Shown here piece after piece: positions 50 to 36,089 of a stretch of 39,819 nucleotides of DNA (position 1 is its first letter; the number at the start of each line of letters is the position of its first letter). Position numbers and translations under genes: made by a program. Source of the DNA: Nitrososphaerales archaeon (GTDB lineage: Archaea > Thermoproteota > Nitrososphaeria > Nitrososphaerales > Gagatemarchaeaceae); contig JAJTZB010000012.1 of assembly GCA_032906765.1 (NCBI GenBank), forward strand, positions 1 through 39,819, written 5' to 3'. The notes under the pieces were generated by a model, which saw only the letters and a program-made list of their open reading frames with translations, did not search any database and was not told the origin of the DNA.

Positions 50-985
50 TCAGGGGAGGGTTATCTTGCCAAGTACGCAGAGGGCCTCTTCAACATTTCT
101 AGCGGCCACATGAGTGTATATCTGGGTGCTCAGAATGCTCGAATGCCCGAGTATTGTCTGCAAGGTTCTGAGGTCAGTGCCCTTCTCGAGAAGCAACGTT
201 GCCATGGTGTGCCTCATGGAGTGGGGGGTGAAACTACCCTTCACTCTTGCAATGCGCAAGTAGGCACCAAAACCTCCTTGGATTGACCTCGGCGTGAGGC
301 GCTGTCCGAACCTGTTAAGGAATAGCGCTTGTTCGTCACCTGGTAGACGAAGCCGCAGCTCTAGGTAGCGATGTATGTTCGAAACTAGACGCCGATTCCT
401 TACGTACAACATGCGATCCTTTCTTCCCTTGCCGTGAACTAGAAGAGACCCCGACCTAGAGTCGAAATCCCTGATGTCGAGCTTCGTGACTTCGCCGACC
501 CTCATCCCAGTGAAAAAAAGCAGTGACAATATTGCACTGTCTCTCAGCGCTTTGAATCGCTTGCTTCTGTTTCGGCCTGCAGTCAGCCCGCGCGCATTCA
601 TCTGTGCGAGGATTGGAGCTTCCAGGAGCCTCTTGAGATCGGCTAGAGGTATCAGGCGAGGTAACGGTGCCGACGACCTGAATCGAAGCCCAATTTCCCT
701 CATTGGCGACGCATCGCAGAAGTCGAATTGCACCAAGTACGCGAAGAAGCGTCTTAAGGAAACAAGCTTTCTCTTGAATGTGCTCTCGGAGTAGTGTTTC
801 GATTCGCGGGCGGCTGAGAAGTAACCGACCACATCGTCCGGCGTTACAAGCGACAGTTCTGTCCGACCAAGATATTGGAAGAAGTGCTCGATGTCGCTCT
901 TGTAGGCTTTGAGTGTGTTCGTAGAGCTGTTTGAATCAATTTCAAGGAATCTTAGGAATGACGATGTTGCGTCTCCAGGAATCAA
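50..985 (-). CDS. Tyrosine recombinase / integrase (XerA-like)
   Basis: This 311-residue protein is a complete tyrosine recombinase that breaks and rejoins DNA strands through a 3'-phosphotyrosine. Residues about 5-90 form the SAM-like core-binding domain and about 110-305 the catalytic domain. All catalytic residues are visible: R162 (GMRVGE), K186 (HGKGRKD), H255 and R258 (HSMRH), H281 (GHSS) and nucleophile Y290. The TTG start is favoured because a TATA-like box (CATAAAA on the minus strand, about 1011-1018) lies about 26 bases before it, which predicts a leaderless transcript. A 6-bp inverted repeat overlaps that box. The length fits the XerA/XerC/D family, but the position at the edge of an AT-rich island suggests an element integrase rather than the chromosomal dimer-resolution enzyme. 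Confidence 0.93.
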   Translation of the reverse strand: MIPGDATSSFLRFLEIDSNSSTNTLKAYKSDIEHFFQYLGRTELSLVTPDDVVGYFSAARESKHYSESTFKRKLVSLRRFFAYLVQFDFCDASPMREIGLRFRSSAPLPRLIPLADLKRLLEAPILAQMNARGLTAGRNRSKRFKALRDSAILSLLFFTGMRVGEVTKLDIRDFDSRSGSLLVHGKGRKDRMLYVRNRRLVSNIHRYLELRLRLPGDEQALFLNRFGQRLTPRSIQGGFGAYLRIARVKGSFTPHSMRHTMATLLLEKGTDLRTLQTILGHSSILSTQIYTHVAARNVEEALCVLGKITLP

Positions 986-1263: not shown

Positions 1264-1271
1264 CTTAAATC
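1264..1271 (+). promoter_or_regulatory. TATA box for the basic-protein/nuclease operon
   Basis: CTTAAATC is centred about 26 bases before the ATG at 1293. This is the spacing seen for leaderless archaeal promoters across this window, and it supports the start of the small basic protein. Confidence 0.5.
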
Positions 1272-1292
1272 TCCGAAGAGAGTGGAAGTATC

Positions 1293-1361
1293 ATGAGACG
1301 GGTCAAGTTCAGGACACGGAGAGGGAAGAAAATCTCCTTCCTAGCGAGAAAGCGAAGGTAG
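1293..1361 (+). CDS. Tiny Arg/Lys-rich protein (22 aa), ends in an amber codon
   Basis: This very short basic peptide has a core (TRRGKKISFLARKRR) that resembles the core of the next open frame (TRRGKVSFKAKVPSKRRK). It starts on an ATG with a well-placed TATA box, so the transcript is probably leaderless. The frame ends with TAG and the very next codon, in the same frame, is ATG. The two pieces could be separate translationally coupled proteins, one protein made by amber read-through, or one gene broken by a nonsense mutation. The strong positive charge suggests nucleic-acid binding. No known family is recognised. Confidence 0.45.
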   Translation: MRRVKFRTRRGKKISFLARKRR

Positions 1362-1502
1362 ATGCGACGAGCGAGCTTCTACGCCAAGAAGAAGGTCAGG
1401 AGAACAATCTCATTCAAGACTAGAAGGGGCAAGGTTTCATTCAAAGCTAAGGTTCCATCCAAGCGGCGGAAGAAAGTTACATTCTACCACTCGGAAGGTT
1501 AG
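1362..1502 (+). CDS. Small Arg/Lys-rich protein (46 aa)
   Basis: This 46-residue basic protein is in frame with, and immediately after, the TAG of the preceding mini-gene. It repeats the same motif twice (RRTISFKTRRGK, VSFKAKVPSKRRKK), which gives a repetitive basic and beta-prone pattern (S/T-F-K/R-aromatic). It has no promoter of its own, so it depends on the upstream start by re-initiation or read-through. The nuclease-like gene begins only five bases after its stop and its end supplies that gene's Shine-Dalgarno site. Small basic proteins of this sort are common in archaeal mobile elements and viruses, where they bind DNA. The function here is unknown. Confidence 0.5.
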   Translation: MRRASFYAKKKVRRTISFKTRRGKVSFKAKVPSKRRKKVTFYHSEG

Positions 1503-1507
1503 CAGAA

Positions 1508-1951
1508 ATGAGTGGTTCAATCTGGTCCTGGGGAAACGAACCCAAGAAAAGGAAGACGAAACGGCGAAGAGGTCAAACGGCGTATAGAAAGGGGACTATT
1601 GGAGAGACCAAAGCGACTGGTTTCCTGAGAAGGCGGGGTTATTCCCCCATTGTCCTAGGCCGCCTGCGAACGAACGCGGGTGAATTCGACCGCATAATGC
1701 GTTCACCACAGGGAAGGAAGGTTGCAGTTGAAGTCAAGAATCTTTCCTCACCAGTTCAGGCGACAAGCGTCAAGAAATTCGCGAAGAAAGTCGCACAAGA
1801 AAGAAGACATGGGATGGTGAGCAATGGCGTCATGGTGTCTAAGAGTGGTTTTTCGCCTCAAGCCAAGAAGGTGGCCAGAGGGCAACATGTCAAACTGATA
1901 AAATACGCTCCGCTTAAGCGAAAGCGGAGCCGGTCGCTGTTCGGATGGTGA
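1508..1951 (+). CDS. PD-(D/E)XK nuclease-like protein
   Basis: This 147-residue protein has a restriction-endonuclease-like core at about 28-125. A GE pair (E33) in the first helix is followed by G58-E59-F60-D61 and then VEVK (E75, K77), the layout of Holliday-junction-resolvase, UPF0102 and Mrr-type nucleases. Both tails are strongly basic (PKKRKTKRRR near the start, LKRKRSRS at the end), which should help DNA binding. GGAAGGT lies about 9 bases before the ATG, and the gene follows the small basic protein by 5 bases, so it is in the same operon. In an integrase-bearing island it could process recombination or replication intermediates, or act in restriction. The substrate cannot be told from sequence. 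Confidence 0.65.
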   Translation: MSGSIWSWGNEPKKRKTKRRRGQTAYRKGTIGETKATGFLRRRGYSPIVLGRLRTNAGEFDRIMRSPQGRKVAVEVKNLSSPVQATSVKKFAKKVAQERRHGMVSNGVMVSKSGFSPQAKKVARGQHVKLIKYAPLKRKRSRSLFGW

Positions 1952-2231: not shown

Positions 2232-3044
2232 TCAACGCATTTGCTTTACCCAGTCGTTATAGAAGACCTTCAATCGTCTGATATCGTCTTCGGACAATGG
2301 ATTGTTATGGGCTACAACGTTTCGTGAGATTTCAATCTCCTCAATTCTCTGAGATACCCACTCAAGGGGTCTTCTCAAGTCTGGCATTTTGGCTTTGAAG
2401 GATGAGTAGTTTGCCGTAATGATCTTGTTTAGGTCGTCAATATCGACATAGAAGATAGGATGCGCTCCTCGTTTTCCGTGCCACCTATTCCTGCCTTCCT
2501 TTTGCATTCTGTCCTGGGCTTTCGACTGAATCGGCTTCGCTACCGTGGTAGTCCACCATTCACTTCCATGCTTGGCTTCCATGTTTGACATGATGAAATG
2601 CCGAACGGAGTTCTCGAATAGGTAAAGGTAGGGGTATAGCTTTTGCATTTCGAGGGCTTCTCTGATTACTGATTCAGGCAGTCCGGGGTTCTCTATCTTG
2701 AGTTCGTCTGAGAATCTTACTGTGACATTCCGAGGGGTCGTCGAGAACTGACCTCTCGACTTCTCGGAGATTGTGGTCTTTATGACGGACCTCAGGTTGA
2801 GGGTTCTCACTTGAGGGCTTTGACGGTATATTCCCTTGCGTTTTCCTACCTCTTCGACTAGGTTGAGGTGGGACATAGCTTTGAGGAATTCAGAACAAGT
2901 TGTGGGATTCAACTTCGTGATATTGGAAACCTCTTTGTAGTGTTTTGGCTTCCTCACTGCCTCAAGGACAGACAGGCGTTCGGCATTCTTGCAGAATGAG
3001 ATAAGATTTGCCTTCACAGATTCTATATCTTCGACCGGAGGCAC
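2232..3044 (-). CDS. Winged-helix + Swt1-type HEPN domain protein
   Basis: This 270-residue protein has two parts. Residues about 10-85 form an ArsR-like winged helix (recognition region TKLNPTTCSEFLKAMSHL, wing GKRKGIYR). Residues about 130-268 match the Swt1-like HEPN fold (LFENSVRHFIMSNM, then DLNKIITANYSSF), with a terminal RNVVAH that gives the R-x4-H motif (R241, H246) typical of HEPN RNases. HEPN proteins with this motif often cut RNA in toxin-antitoxin and abortive-infection systems. The GTG start lies 4 bases after the preceding stop, with GGGG about 11 bases upstream. It is the last and largest gene of a six-gene operon of small HTH proteins, which suggests they control it or form a complex with it. 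RNase activity is inferred. Confidence 0.72.
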   Translation of the reverse strand: MPPVEDIESVKANLISFCKNAERLSVLEAVRKPKHYKEVSNITKLNPTTCSEFLKAMSHLNLVEEVGKRKGIYRQSPQVRTLNLRSVIKTTISEKSRGQFSTTPRNVTVRFSDELKIENPGLPESVIREALEMQKLYPYLYLFENSVRHFIMSNMEAKHGSEWWTTTVAKPIQSKAQDRMQKEGRNRWHGKRGAHPIFYVDIDDLNKIITANYSSFKAKMPDLRRPLEWVSQRIEEIEISRNVVAHNNPLSEDDIRRLKVFYNDWVKQMR

Positions 3045-3048
3045 TTAG

Positions 3049-3219
3049 TTACTTCCCCGACTTGACTTTCTCTTTGCCGAGCATCTCTCTGAGTTTTGAC
3101 TCTCTTATGCCCATGATCTTTGCGACCTGTTTGATGCTCGGTTCTCTATCTAGCAATAGGTTCGCTAATAGGAATTCAATGCTTAGAAGATGTTCGTCAG
3201 TTTCCTTCTTATTTGGCAC
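3049..3219 (-). CDS. Small helix-turn-helix protein E (about 56 aa)
   Basis: This is the fifth gene of the HTH/HEPN operon. A helix (HLLSIEFLLANLLLDRE) leads into an HTH (SIKQVAKIMGIRESKLREML). GTG at 3219 is chosen because GGTGA sits five bases before it; a GTG nine bases upstream is the alternative. The start lies inside the end of gene D, whose stop is at 3209. The helix-LLxxLLL-HTH plan is shared with genes A, C and D and more loosely with B. The HTH is of the sigma-region-4/Cro type. No named family is recognised. Confidence 0.6.
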   Translation of the reverse strand: MPNKKETDEHLLSIEFLLANLLLDREPSIKQVAKIMGIRESKLREMLGKEKVKSGK

Positions 3220-3463
3220 TTTCTTCACCTTGACGAGCTGACGGTTGAGTTTTTGTTCCCGGTTGGTACTTCGATACTTGGCGCTGGGGGAAGAGTTTTG
3301 AAAGTGTGCCGTGTCTGACTTTGATTAGTTCTTCTAGGCTACGAAGGCTTGGTTTCGGCTCGCTTTTCAGCAGCAAGCCTGCTAATAGGATTTGAGCTAC
3401 CTTCGTTGGTTCGTTTTCGAGCTCTTGTTCGTCCTTGGAATTCTTGGGGTTACTTTGCGCCAT
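3209..3463 (-). CDS. Small helix-turn-helix protein D (84 aa)
   Basis: A polar N-terminus of about 18 residues is followed by a leucine-rich helix (KVAQILLAGLLLKSE) and a degenerate HTH (SLRSLEELIKVRHGTLSKLF). A Gln/Ser/Lys-rich tail of about 25 residues looks disordered. The ATG follows an AAGGGGAAG Shine-Dalgarno site and overlaps the end of gene C by 14 bases. The HTH is the least canonical of the set, so this member may have turned from DNA binding to protein binding. It probably works with its paralogues and the HEPN protein downstream. Confidence 0.65.
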   Translation of the reverse strand: MAQSNPKNSKDEQELENEPTKVAQILLAGLLLKSEPKPSLRSLEELIKVRHGTLSKLFPQRQVSKYQPGTKTQPSARQGEESAK

Positions 3464-3614
3464 CTTTCTTCCCCTTTCGGCTTAGCATCTTACTGACGGC
3501 GGGTTGTTTTACACCTAGAGCCTTTGCGATGTTTCCTTGGTCGACCTTGTTGGCCTGCAGAAGTAGAACTAGTAGCTTCTTGATGTCTCTGAGCTCGTTT
3601 AGTTCATCAGTCAA
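3450..3614 (-). CDS. Small helix-turn-helix protein C (54 aa)
   Basis: This is the shortest and clearest member of the set. A helix (LRDIKKLLVLLLQAN) precedes a textbook HTH (VDQGNIAKALGVKQPAVSKML) and a basic tail (RKGKKDGAK). The start is a TTG that overlaps the TGA of gene B, with GGTGA nine bases upstream. Without this TTG the frame has no suitable start. Its HTH resembles Cro/sigma-region-4 domains, and the near absence of anything else suggests it acts as an oligomer or together with the other HTH proteins of the operon. Confidence 0.65.
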   Translation of the reverse strand: MTDELNELRDIKKLLVLLLQANKVDQGNIAKALGVKQPAVSKMLSRKGKKDGAK

Positions 3615-3864
3615 CTCGTTTCTTCACCAATCTTGCAAGAAGTTTCTTGTTGGTAGCTCTTCGCAGGTAGGACGCGACCTGATTACCAGGTATTCCAAGG
3701 ATCGATGCGGCTTGTCCTTGCGGTAGTCCGGCATCCTGCAGAATGAGAATTTGGTCTCCGATAGTAAGGTCTTCGTCTTTGGCTCTCTGTTCCTCTAGGG
3801 CCAGTCGTAGAAGAGCTCTTAGGAGGGACTCGGAAGTTGGTCTAAGCTCTTTGTGCTCAGACAT
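3607..3864 (-). CDS. Small helix-turn-helix protein B (85 aa)
   Basis: This is the longest HTH protein of the operon. An N-terminal amphipathic helix (SLLRALLRLALEEQRAKDE) is followed by an HTH (GLPQGQAASILGIPGNQVASYLRRA) and a basic C-terminus (TNKKLLARLVKKRVD). The ATG has GGAGG eight bases upstream and overlaps the stop of gene A by eight bases. The leucine-rich helix plus HTH matches the plan of A, C, D and E, so the five genes look like diverged paralogues. It is expected to bind DNA, perhaps as a heteromer. This is an inference from architecture. Confidence 0.7.
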   Translation of the reverse strand: MSEHKELRPTSESLLRALLRLALEEQRAKDEDLTIGDQILILQDAGLPQGQAASILGIPGNQVASYLRRATNKKLLARLVKKRVD

Positions 3865-4021
3865 TTTCTCGCCTCCTCGTCATTCCCTTCAACGGAAATC
3901 TATTCTGTATGGTCTTGACGTTTAAGCCTGTTACGTTGGCTATCGCTTCATGGCTCACGCCTGACTTGATGAGAAGGAGGATTAGAAGGTCTCGCAGCGT
4001 CTCGTATTGTTCTTGTTCCAT
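3857..4021 (-). CDS. Small helix-turn-helix protein A (54 aa), first gene of operon
   Basis: This protein starts MEQEQYETLRD, continues with a leucine-rich helix (LLILLLIKSG) and an HTH (VSHEAIANVTGLNVKTIQNRF), and ends in a basic tail (KGMTRRREN). The ATG at 4021 is chosen because a TATA box (CTTTATATC, 4046-4054) is centred about 29 bases upstream, so the mRNA is almost leaderless. A longer frame reaching 4249 would start upstream of the promoter and is rejected. As the first cistron it is the natural autoregulator of the six-gene HTH/HEPN operon. Confidence 0.68.
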   Translation of the reverse strand: MEQEQYETLRDLLILLLIKSGVSHEAIANVTGLNVKTIQNRFPLKGMTRRRENV

Positions 4022-4045
4022 CACATGTGTTAACAAACTCCCTGA

Positions 4046-4054
4046 GATATAAAG
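4046..4054 (-). promoter_or_regulatory. TATA box of the HTH/HEPN operon
   Basis: Minus-strand CTTTATATC is about 29 bases before the ATG at 4021 and is the only well-placed promoter for the six overlapping genes that run down to 2232. The internal genes have Shine-Dalgarno sites and no TATA boxes, which fits one polycistronic transcript. Confidence 0.55.
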
Positions 4055-33655: not shown

Positions 33656-34417
33656 CTAGCCGGACCGAGGCGCGACCTTCAGGCCACGGTCTGCCGTTTC
33701 CTTCCACTCTTCCATTATCTTGACGCTGGAGCTGGTGCCGATTCTGTCGGCCCCAGCCTTGATCATCTCCAATGCCTTCTCTAGCGTCCCGATACCGCCA
33801 GCCGCCTTGATTCTCGCGGTGCCCGCAAGCGCTTTCTTCAGGAGCGCGACGTCCTCAACCGTCGCGCCGCTTGTGCCGAATCCCGTAGAGGTCTTCACGT
33901 AGTCCGCTCCAGCTCGCTCCGCAAGTCTCGCTGCGCCCACCTTCTCGTCGTTGGTCAAGTAGCAGCACTCGATAATCACTTTGAGGAGCTTGCGCGCGCC
34001 ATGGCAGCACTTTGCGGCATCCTCAATTTCGTGGAAGATGAAGTTGTAGTCGCCTGACTTGAAGGCGCCAAGGTTCATTACCATGTCAATCTCGTCGGCA
34101 CCGTCTCCGATTGCAGTCTCAGCCTCTGCCAGCTTCACGCTGGTTGAACTGAAGCCGAGAGGGAAGCCGACAACCGCACAGACCTTCACTCCGCTGCCTC
34201 TGAGGTTCTCTGCCGCCCGCTTCACGTAGAATGAACCCACGCAAACGCTCCAGAAGTCGAACTTCATGGCCTCGGCGCAGAGCCTGTCGATATCCGCTCC
34301 TGTCGCGTAAGGCTTCAGGAGAGTGTGGTCGATGCACTTCGCGAATTCGTGCTTCCCGACCGCTCTCCTCGTTCCGCTCGCGACTGTGCCGGACAACTTC
34401 GGGGAGGGCCTCATCAA
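33656..34417 (-). CDS. deoC: Deoxyribose-phosphate aldolase
   Basis: DeoC cleaves 2-deoxyribose 5-phosphate to glyceraldehyde 3-phosphate and acetaldehyde. The class I aldolase TIM barrel is complete: CIDHTLLKPYAT, VCAVVGFPLG, DEIDMVMNLGAFKSGDY, the Schiff-base lysine in YVKTSTGF, the proton-relay lysine in IKAAGGI and the phosphate loop RIGTSSSVKI. The N-terminal 20 residues before KHEFAKCIDHTLL are extra. A TATA-like CTTAAC lies only about 10 bases before the TTG-ATG start, so the real start may lie further in, but no good codon is seen there. Confidence 0.94.
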   Translation of the reverse strand: MMRPSPKLSGTVASGTRRAVGKHEFAKCIDHTLLKPYATGADIDRLCAEAMKFDFWSVCVGSFYVKRAAENLRGSGVKVCAVVGFPLGFSSTSVKLAEAETAIGDGADEIDMVMNLGAFKSGDYNFIFHEIEDAAKCCHGARKLLKVIIECCYLTNDEKVGAARLAERAGADYVKTSTGFGTSGATVEDVALLKKALAGTARIKAAGGIGTLEKALEMIKAGADRIGTSSSVKIMEEWKETADRGLKVAPRSG

Positions 34418-34503
34418 GCCTGTTGTTAAGACAGAGAGATGATTTTCAATGCTGAGAATGGAAGGAGGATCGTGGATGGTGTCTCAGTGCTATTCAGGTC
34501 GTC

Positions 34504-35334
34504 TCAGGAGCTCGTCGTTGCTGGTCCTTGGCCAGACTTGATTCTTTCCGACCGCGAAGCTGACCGGAAGAACAACCCCAAGGCGAAAATTGTCGCACCG
34601 ACGATCACGACCAGCGGTCCCGCGGGAACATTCACGTAGCTGGAAAGCATGATTCCTGATGTTGCGCTCAGCAGGCCGATTAGAGAGCTCGTCAATGAGT
34701 ACGTGCGCATCGTCGTGCTGACATTCCTCGCCGCGGCTGCGGGCACGATCACGACTGCGCCGACAAGCAAGGTGCCGACCTCTTTTATCCCGATGGCGAC
34801 TATCGTGGCTACCAGCAGTAGGTAGATCAGGTTGATCCTTTCAACTCTGACGCCATTTGAGACAGCAAGTTCCTTTGAAATCACGCTCAGAGCAAGTTTG
34901 TCATGGATTGCCCTGGTCACAATTATCACGAGGACAGAAGTCGGTACGGTCACAATGACGTCAATCAAGGTCAACTTCGATATGTCGCCGAAGAGTGCTT
35001 CGAGCAGGTCCACCTGGGGGGTGATGAGGATACCGATTGCTAGGGCCAGGACGAAAAGCACGCCTATGATCGCTTCTATGGAGAGCGTGGTCGACCTTTG
35101 AATTTGCCACGTGATGATTGCAGTGACGGCCAAGAAAGTGAAGGCTCCAATGAAGGGGTTGAAGCCGAAGAGTATCCCGAGAGCGAGGCCGGGGAGTGCC
35201 ACGTGCGACATCGCGTCGCCGACCAGTGCCATGTGTCTGGAGACCATGATCGATCCAAGGTAACCGGCTGCAGAGCCCGCGAATGCCCCAACCGCGAGAC
35301 TGAACAGGATTGTGCTTGGCAGTTTCCGTGTCAC
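34504..35334 (-). CDS. Zn/Mn-type ABC transporter permease
   Basis: This 276-residue protein is of the ABC-3 (ZnuB/MntB) family. The start region GYLGSIMVSRHMALVGDAMS, with HVALPGLALGILFG, is diagnostic. About eight helices follow, with VGTLLVGAVVIVPAAAARN near the end. It should form the membrane part of a zinc, manganese or related metal importer with the ATPase encoded just upstream; the two genes meet at 35334. No substrate-binding protein gene is in this window. The C-terminal 25 residues are a charged tail. Confidence 0.9.
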   Translation of the reverse strand: MTRKLPSTILFSLAVGAFAGSAAGYLGSIMVSRHMALVGDAMSHVALPGLALGILFGFNPFIGAFTFLAVTAIITWQIQRSTTLSIEAIIGVLFVLALAIGILITPQVDLLEALFGDISKLTLIDVIVTVPTSVLVIIVTRAIHDKLALSVISKELAVSNGVRVERINLIYLLLVATIVAIGIKEVGTLLVGAVVIVPAAAARNVSTTMRTYSLTSSLIGLLSATSGIMLSSYVNVPAGPLVVIVGATIFALGLFFRSASRSERIKSGQGPATTSS

Positions 35335-36089
35335 TACTCTCTGTCGGTGTGCTCGTCACCCGACACGTCGAACTCACCGCCATACATCATCCCGAGCAAG
35401 TTGGAGTGTGTGACGGTGTTAGTGTCGCCGAAGAACATTACCCGCCTGTTAAGCGCCAACACCTTGTCTGAGTAGTGCATCACGACATGCATGTTATGAG
35501 ATATCAGAAGTACAGTTATGCCGAGCGTCTCCTTTAGTCGGGTAACCTTCTGGTAGATGGGCTCTTCTGCACCTATGTCCACTCCCGACGTCGGTTCGTC
35601 GAACAAGAGCACGTTGGGGTTGTCCACGATGGCCCAAGCGATTAGAATCCTCTGGAGTTGTCCTCCGGACAATGACCCCAGCGACTGGCTCAGGATTTCC
35701 TTGTCCAAGCCGACAGAACTTACGCACGCCTCGAAATCGGTCTTGCACTTGAACCTTAGGAACTCTTCCACAGATATCGGAAGGTCTGTCGCAACTAGGC
35801 TCTGGGGAACGTACCCGACTCTCACCTTTTCCCTCCAGCTGATGGATCCCGAGTATGGGACCAGGTTCAGCAGCGACCTGAACAACGTTGTTTTGCCGCC
35901 GCCGTTCGGGCCGACGATAGCTAGGGTGGTGCCCCTCTTCACCCTGAAGGTCACATCTTGGAGTATGGCTCCGTTCTTGGAAACCACGCCCAAGTTGGAG
36001 ACGGCCAGCAGGTAATCGGTTGCTTCCCCGGTCTGGTCAAGAGTCCTGCTCTTGCCCGAACCCAGGCCACCCAATTCAAGCACACCCAC
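35334..36089 (-). CDS. Zn/Mn-type ABC transporter ATP-binding protein
   Basis: This 251-residue ATPase has Walker A GPNGGGKTT (about 59-67), VGYVPQSLVATDLPISVEEF, the signature LSGGQLQR, Walker B VLLFDEPTSGVD and the H-loop LLISHNMHVV. The VGYVPQ and PISVEEF pattern is typical of ZnuC/MntA-like ATPases. The N-terminal 25 residues are extra. The GTG start is tentative, with a second in-frame GTG two codons later. A TATA-like GGCTATACG (about 36127-36135) lies about 40 bases upstream. Confidence 0.92.
   Translation of the reverse strand: MGVLELGGLGSGKSRTLDQTGEATDYLLAVSNLGVVSKNGAILQDVTFRVKRGTTLAIVGPNGGGKTTLFRSLLNLVPYSGSISWREKVRVGYVPQSLVATDLPISVEEFLRFKCKTDFEACVSSVGLDKEILSQSLGSLSGGQLQRILIAWAIVDNPNVLLFDEPTSGVDIGAEEPIYQKVTRLKETLGITVLLISHNMHVVMHYSDKVLALNRRVMFFGDTNTVTHSNLLGMMYGGEFDVSGDEHTDRE

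Follow-up and report, generated by a model that had tools for sequence, protein, structure and literature searches.

Why does an archaeal operon place a row of small helix-turn-helix (HTH) genes directly ahead of a gene for a HEPN protein? The question is raised by a 39,819-nucleotide stretch of a Nitrososphaerales genome (GenBank assembly GCA_032906765.1, contig JAJTZB010000012.1; hereafter the window), in which five small genes (A to E) and a HEPN gene (F) form a six-gene operon on the minus strand between positions 4021 and 2232, as an initial annotation made from the letters alone had rightly delineated. That annotation saw five HTH paralogues ahead of a winged-helix/HEPN effector and proposed a defence, dormancy or element-copy-control module. 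Here, homology searches identify the operon as one version of a gene module that recurs in archaea and keeps a bank of HTH-type proteins while the putative effector beside it changes. The plan that best explains the comparative data would comprise 4-9 unlike proteins, each combining a helix with an HTH or winged HTH (wHTH) domain; often a class-specific HTH protein encoded directly before the effector, or else a wHTH or adaptor region fused to it; and one interchangeable effector.

HTH arrays recur with and without a HEPN gene

Altogether we find 16 array loci, distributed over 15 genomes of Thermoproteota; each encodes 4-9 small proteins of the coiled-coil/(winged-)HTH kind (one locus is cut by a contig end). 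Searching 300 genomes of the order with a single sequence yielded the arrays of Nitrosopumilus (G155, OX638319.1), where five small HTH genes run in the same orientation ahead of the gene for a protein 44% identical to F (residues 89-269), and of Nitrosarchaeum (G114), where two small HTH genes follow the HEPN gene and two divergent ones precede it; a phylum-wide search with M34B, a PADLOC family matched by F, added G401, in which HTH genes flank the HEPN gene on both sides. As the initial annotation would predict, the array recurs with a HEPN gene in other archaea, namely in both of these genera and in a distant Thermoproteota family. Further arrays, free of HEPN genes, came to light with a profile made from the most frequent of the small proteins, the LSDG type of roughly 120 residues, bringing the loci analysed first to 14 (the window, G155, G114, G401, two in G495, G510, G421, G363, G652, G665, G637, G645 and G187); loci 15 and 16, found with an alignment of mini-HTH proteins, are those of G051 and the contig-cut G112. 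The G051 array, with three mini-HTH genes, a wHTH-nuclease gene, two further mini-HTH genes and a diverged HEPN gene, is the closest in style to that of the window, which is a reduced form with mini-HTH proteins of 54-85 residues.

The initial annotation held that HTH genes scattered without the HEPN gene in relatives would speak against its reading. Arrays without a HEPN gene do occur, but they reflect swapping rather than scatter, because the arrays are whole and the effector position is still taken by an effector-like gene; a single LSDG gene outside any array occurs in G475. No array proteins were found in viral contigs or in phage and plasmid collections, and peptide patterns of F returned nothing from viral and GTDB contigs. 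A search with a three-row alignment of F matched Nitrosopumilus and Nitrosarchaeum only.

Exchange of putative effectors between arrays

Over the 16 loci the effector classes comprise five HEPN proteins (the window, G155, G114, G401 and, diverged, G051), five adaptor-fused putative nucleases (two in G495, one of them broken by the contig end, and one each in G510, G363 and G645), four proteins in which a wHTH is fused to a putative PD-(D/E)xK-type nuclease domain (G421, G637, G051 and G112), one HNH protein, and three small membrane proteins with about three hydrophobic segments each (G652, G665 and G187). Partial catalytic motifs are seen in the G112 protein (D...E-V-K) and in that of G363 (D...Q-I-K). 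The HNH protein of G401 (L034:9234-9839; Pfam HNH, 7.5e-12) begins with the adaptor found in the nuclease-like effectors, so that one shared N-terminal adaptor is joined to differing C-terminal domains. Its gene lies just downstream of an array already holding a HEPN gene and is possibly a second effector gene. At the level of sequence, these comparisons show that effectors are exchanged between arrays, and that HEPN is one option among several rather than the defining feature of the system, since most HTH arrays hold another effector (putative DNases, HNH or membrane proteins). In G637, the wHTH-nuclease gene is followed by a gene for a 223-residue protein with a C-terminal Ribosomal_L13e-like stretch (L098:3036-3707; Pfam, 2e-10).

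A conserved control part combined with an exchangeable nuclease or membrane effector is a signature of immune and toxin systems. Cyclic oligonucleotide-based antiphage signalling systems (CBASS), Thoeris, the ancillary effectors of type III CRISPR (clustered regularly interspaced short palindromic repeats) systems and retrons all join a conserved sensing part to interchangeable nuclease or membrane effectors; the array operons differ from them in having no cyclase, TIR, reverse transcriptase or Cas effector, and in that their conserved part is the HTH set itself.

The HTH bank and its coupling to the effector gene

When the 90 small proteins of the first 14 loci were compared by blastp, 89 had their best match in another locus rather than among their own neighbours (the database is small and the E-values are relative), which rules out tandem duplication within each genome as the origin of the bank. 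Linking at 1e-12 sorts the proteins into about 14 types, several of which are common to HEPN, nuclease and membrane-effector arrays. In a tree of the 26 LSDG proteins, those from arrays of one effector class do not cluster (14 changes, where shuffling gives 13.1 on average), and well-supported sister pairs join different classes, such as T2 from a membrane-effector array with V2 from a nuclease array (100/100) and B4 (HEPN) with Ga3 (nuclease; 95/92). For one LSDG protein of Nitrosopumilus, the predicted structure consists of one 33-residue helix followed by a winged helix (predicted local distance difference test score, pLDDT, 84.6), and its best Foldseek matches in the PDB are mostly winged-helix regulators, for example of the MarR type (probability up to 0.99, E only 0.011); a winged-helix fold is thus predicted for one array member. 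Beyond generic HTH similarity, PADLOC, PHROGs and NCBIfam gave no name to the bank proteins tested.

The gene immediately before the effector follows a different rule. HTH types i and m precede the adaptor-fused nucleases in five of five cases and type k precedes the membrane proteins in three of three, each standing directly before its own class only, a clean split of eight genes by class that has a chance of 1 in 56. The membrane protein X10 is unrelated in sequence to S8 and T9, and the HTH protein preceding it is 41% identical to theirs. Furthermore, U7 of G637 fuses a V5-like wHTH (3.6e-4) to a V6-like nuclease-like domain (39%, 3e-29), whereas V5 and V6 are separate neighbouring genes in G645, a Rosetta-stone hint that class-specific HTH and effector may work together. 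In nearly every locus, the effector gene overlaps or abuts bank genes.

Gene F as a putative HEPN-type RNase

Residues 140-268 of F match Pfam HEPN_Swt1 (PF18731) at E = 1.9e-11 (44.7 bits against a curated cut-off of 27.5), and the protein matches PADLOC PDC-M34B (PDLC04592) at 2e-48. F carries R241-x4-H246, and both ENS-x-R and R-x4-H are kept in its array homologues; the conservation of R-x4-H, on which the initial annotation had made its reading depend, extends to all four closest array HEPN proteins (window, G155, G114 and G401), where the motif is invariant, and to nearly all wider relatives that align through the region. The winged helix which that annotation placed before the HEPN domain is less firm, with weak profile matches in the N-terminal region (CARF3, 6e-6; array wHTH, 0.0023, with decoys at 1.3 or worse); this architecture is found in further genomes as well, which makes the match more than a coincidence, and the region is loosely consistent with the arrangement that couples HTH domains to effectors. 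F is probably a HEPN-type RNase effector. As in the Abi2-Swt1 HEPN families (PF18731; Anantharaman 2013, PMC3710099), it is HEPN by profile, has R-x4-H and carries a single C-terminal domain; the available part of that survey describes fusions to AAA+, helicase, restriction-modification and wHTH domains and differs from the present case in that it contains no small-HTH bank.

No Pfam match to an MNT nucleotidyltransferase of the kind found next to HEPN genes was obtained among A to F, and no match to a Cas family beyond weak wHTH matches. A distant homologue of F (L119:3713-4462) is encoded on a conjugative plasmid of the cyanobacterium Sphaerospermopsis, with no HTH array among the neighbouring genes.

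Organization of the window operon

The window opens at the end of its contig (contig 12 of a 13-contig, 1.77-Mb archaeal genome), and the operon lies inside a low-GC integrase island (bases 1 to about 4,400, 47-52% GC against about 59% beyond). The contig begins within the island and att repeats could not be identified. Coordinates are collected in Table 1.

Table 1. Features of the operon and its immediate context in the window.
Feature	Position	Strand	Evidence
TATA-like box CTTTATATCT, operon promoter	4045..4054	-	Sequence; 24-33 nt upstream of gene A ATG
Gene A, 54-residue mini-HTH, leucine-rich N-terminal helix	3857..4021	-	Mini-HTH profile, E = 1.2e-9
Gene B, 85-residue sigma-r4-like mini-HTH	3607..3864	-	Delta-type profile, E = 3.8e-5 (first decoy 0.017)
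Gene C, 54-residue mini-HTH, TTG start	3450..3614	-	Mini-HTH profile, E = 1.4e-11
Gene D, 84 residues, leucine-rich helix, HTH uncertain	3209..3463	-	Best codon score in frame; operon position
Gene E, 59-residue mini-HTH, GTG start	3049..3228	-	Mini-HTH profile, E = 1.3e-4
Gene F, 270 residues, GTG start, N-terminal wHTH-like region and Swt1-type HEPN	2232..3044	-	PF18731 profile
Tyrosine recombinase/integrase of the island (context)	50..985	-	Pfam Phage_integrase, 7e-33
Mrr-like PD-(D/E)xK nuclease gene (context; candidate module member at most)	1508..1951	+	Pfam Mrr_cat, 1.4e-10

The profiles used on the small proteins were built only from the arrays of other genomes, and in the first version of the mini-HTH test the first decoy stood at E = 2.2. 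They place A, C and E in one mini-HTH family and B in a second, sigma-r4-like family, so that the five paralogues of the initial annotation are not close ones and belong to at least two old families, with D matching nothing significantly (best 0.035 against a decoy at 0.079). Gene A matches the array proteins T6 and U6 by blastp (6e-9 and 2e-7), and the product of C is 40% identical over 48 residues to that of a small HTH gene adjoining the Nitrosarchaeum HEPN gene; the Pfam matches of B to Sigma70_r4_2 (0.001) and of E to Sigma70_r3 (0.0011) fall below cut-off. Successive small genes overlap by 8 (A/B), 8 (B/C), 14 (C/D) and 20 nt (D/E), and a 4-nt gap separates E from F, in agreement with the tight spacing first described; likewise, a TATA-like box was seen before A and none over the internal starts. 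The claim of a Shine-Dalgarno site at every internal gene was overstated: that of B is good (AGGAGG) and those of D and F are purine-rich, but that of C is weak and E has none. By codon-usage log-odds, trained on three island genes including F, the called frame is the best for all six genes. Directly before the Mrr-like gene, window positions 1268-1502 (+) hold a very basic open reading frame (1362-1502, 46 residues) and, upstream of it, sequence in which a motif resembling (R/K)x(I/V)SFxx(R/K) is repeated.

Genomic setting of the arrays

Integrases are present in the window and G637 islands, and a terminase-like gene (weak Pfam match) lies near the G114 array, which adjoins a gene for a 909-residue protein with EVE, GmrSD_N and Schlafen AlbA_2 domains (L016:2772-5501). 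The G363 array adjoins an Old/GajA-like ATPase, that of G401 a Lamassu LmuB-like SMC protein and a phosphoesterase, and that of G187 a TIR protein. As an informal observation, this setting points to defence islands. Genes for cas1 lie within about 5 kb of the G155 and G495 arrays (L015:9079-10311 and L072:6615-7499) and are possibly solo cas1 genes or casposon remnants; no CRISPR-like repeat family was found in the L032 and L072 stretches despite the nearby cas1, and a CRISPR link for these arrays was dropped.

An immune-type module and its alternatives

We propose, with a probability of about one half, that the arrays are mobile modules of an immune or abortive-infection type, in which the HTH bank would be the sensing and restraining part and the swappable effector would kill or arrest the cell. 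The N-terminal helices of the small proteins could hold these together in a heteromeric complex that binds nucleic acid and restrains the effector or limits its expression; engagement of foreign or replicating mobile DNA, or disruption of the complex, would free effectors or bring them together. In the window version a HEPN dimer would then cut cellular RNA and arrest the cell, and in related versions the target would be DNA or the membrane, with an outcome of the abortive-infection or immune type that may also aid persistence of the island. A more specific version, which we put forward tentatively and do not favour over a broader reading, is that the unlike HTH proteins, joined by their helices, read foreign DNA in combination and license a single swappable effector, be it an RNase, a DNase or a membrane-disrupting protein, in an archaeal immune system new to science. 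Assembly, DNA sensing, inhibition or activation, effector toxicity and the role in defence are steps that we infer. Of the functions suggested at the outset, defence or dormancy is favoured by effector swapping and defence-type neighbours and would still have to be called presumptive, and element-copy control finds no support beyond the location in a mobile island.

Several observations weigh against an immune-type module. The AlphaFold monomer model of F is weak (pLDDT 61) and a fold search with it gave no significant match, so that the HEPN assignment rests on sequence profiles and the motif. Several putative nuclease effectors show partial motifs and match no Pfam family, 'nuclease' being for these a reading from motif and context, and the membrane effectors are called from hydropathy. 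A bank of DNA-binding-type proteins could consist of ordinary regulators. The defence-type neighbours are set against a small control, in which 1 of 10 core proteins of the window had a PADLOC match, at superfamily level (radical-SAM).

Were the arrays toxin-antitoxin modules serving addiction or stress responses, the effector would be the toxin, the adjacent HTH protein or fused wHTH the antitoxin and the rest of the bank co-regulators, with retention of the island as the main benefit. Translationally coupled small HTH genes ahead of a toxin-type gene are the classic layout of such modules and HTH antitoxins are common; the class-specific HTH gene adjoins the effector, and arrays are carried with integrases or near a terminase-like gene. 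Networks that combine one antitoxin domain with swapped toxins do exist, as in the hyperpromiscuous type II Panacea network, where a single regulatory module serves many toxins, membrane-acting ones included (PMC10440598). Panacea systems, however, are two-gene units with a Panacea domain, whereas the arrays have 4-9 unlike HTH partners, and the small proteins scanned gave no Panacea (DUF4065) match. Type II systems known so far have a single antitoxin, against 5-9 conserved, dissimilar partners here; no domain of a known antitoxin was detected, and several HTH genes lie after the effector in G401, G114 and G421. The split between immune and toxin-antitoxin function cannot be made from sequence, and we take the toxin-antitoxin reading to be the main rival, possible but less probable than an immune module. 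Alternatively, the bank might be a transcriptional or replication/copy-control cassette of a mobile island, with the nuclease and membrane genes as separate cargo. HTH proteins are commonplace in mobile elements of archaea. The cryptic integrated elements of thaumarchaea (PMC6563490) resemble the window island, where the operon lies 1.2 kb from the integrase: they are small islands with an integrase and wHTH genes, they come from the same archaeal group, and their wHTH proteins have been suggested as replication initiators; the available part of that study differs from our loci in that it contains no HTH bank with an interchangeable effector. Separate cargo is hard to reconcile with effector genes that overlap or abut the bank, a preceding HTH gene specific to effector class, an HTH-effector fusion, and unrelated membrane proteins (S8/T9 against X10) that follow homologous HTH proteins; nor was any replication protein recognised on the island of the window, although no search was aimed at one. 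We consider such a cassette unlikely.

The homology of F to M34B, the HEPN subunit of the PADLOC phage-defence candidate PDC-M34 (M34A plus M34B), could also mean that the operon is an ordinary two-gene system of this kind that recruited extra HTH genes. Typical pairs of a DUF5343-like M34A and a HEPN M34B occur in archaea of the same order (G024 and G292; L017:7250-8450 and L018:5811-7008), the L017 pair adjoining type I restriction-like genes; since they do, the array-linked HEPN proteins represent a separate context. No M34A match was obtained among A to E or among the genes read beside the G155, G114 and G401 HEPN genes, where a small-HTH bank stands in its place, and in the initial set of 14 loci, 10 have the same bank but no M34B protein. 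Swapped effectors already largely refute this explanation, which we hold to be improbable. Least probable is a chance row of small open reading frames beside a HEPN gene in a degraded island: such frames are easily over-called, and a second mechanical chain of six tight ones occurs in the window (34059-35475, + strand), but homologous arrays exist in 14 other genomes, A, B, C and E have significant profile matches, and the called frames are the best on codon usage.

Implications

HEPN_Swt1 and PDC-M34B are known families of which F is a member; the array system, by contrast, is apparently undescribed. As the initial annotation had suspected, no account of a small-HTH bank before a HEPN effector, or of an HTH-array system, was found in the literature searched, a set without bioRxiv and most subscription papers. 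In the modular immune systems known so far, the sensor has one or a few components; in the arrays, as many as nine different HTH proteins would make up the conserved part, their types being kept distinct across at least two widely separated Thermoproteota groups while the effector changes. If functional, an immune-type module of this kind would be a form of prokaryotic immunity or toxin control with a novel architecture, and would come from archaea in which defence has been little studied. It makes testable why a cell keeps many small DNA-binding-type proteins beside one nuclease or membrane protein, and the shared bank may serve as bait for finding new toxic effectors.

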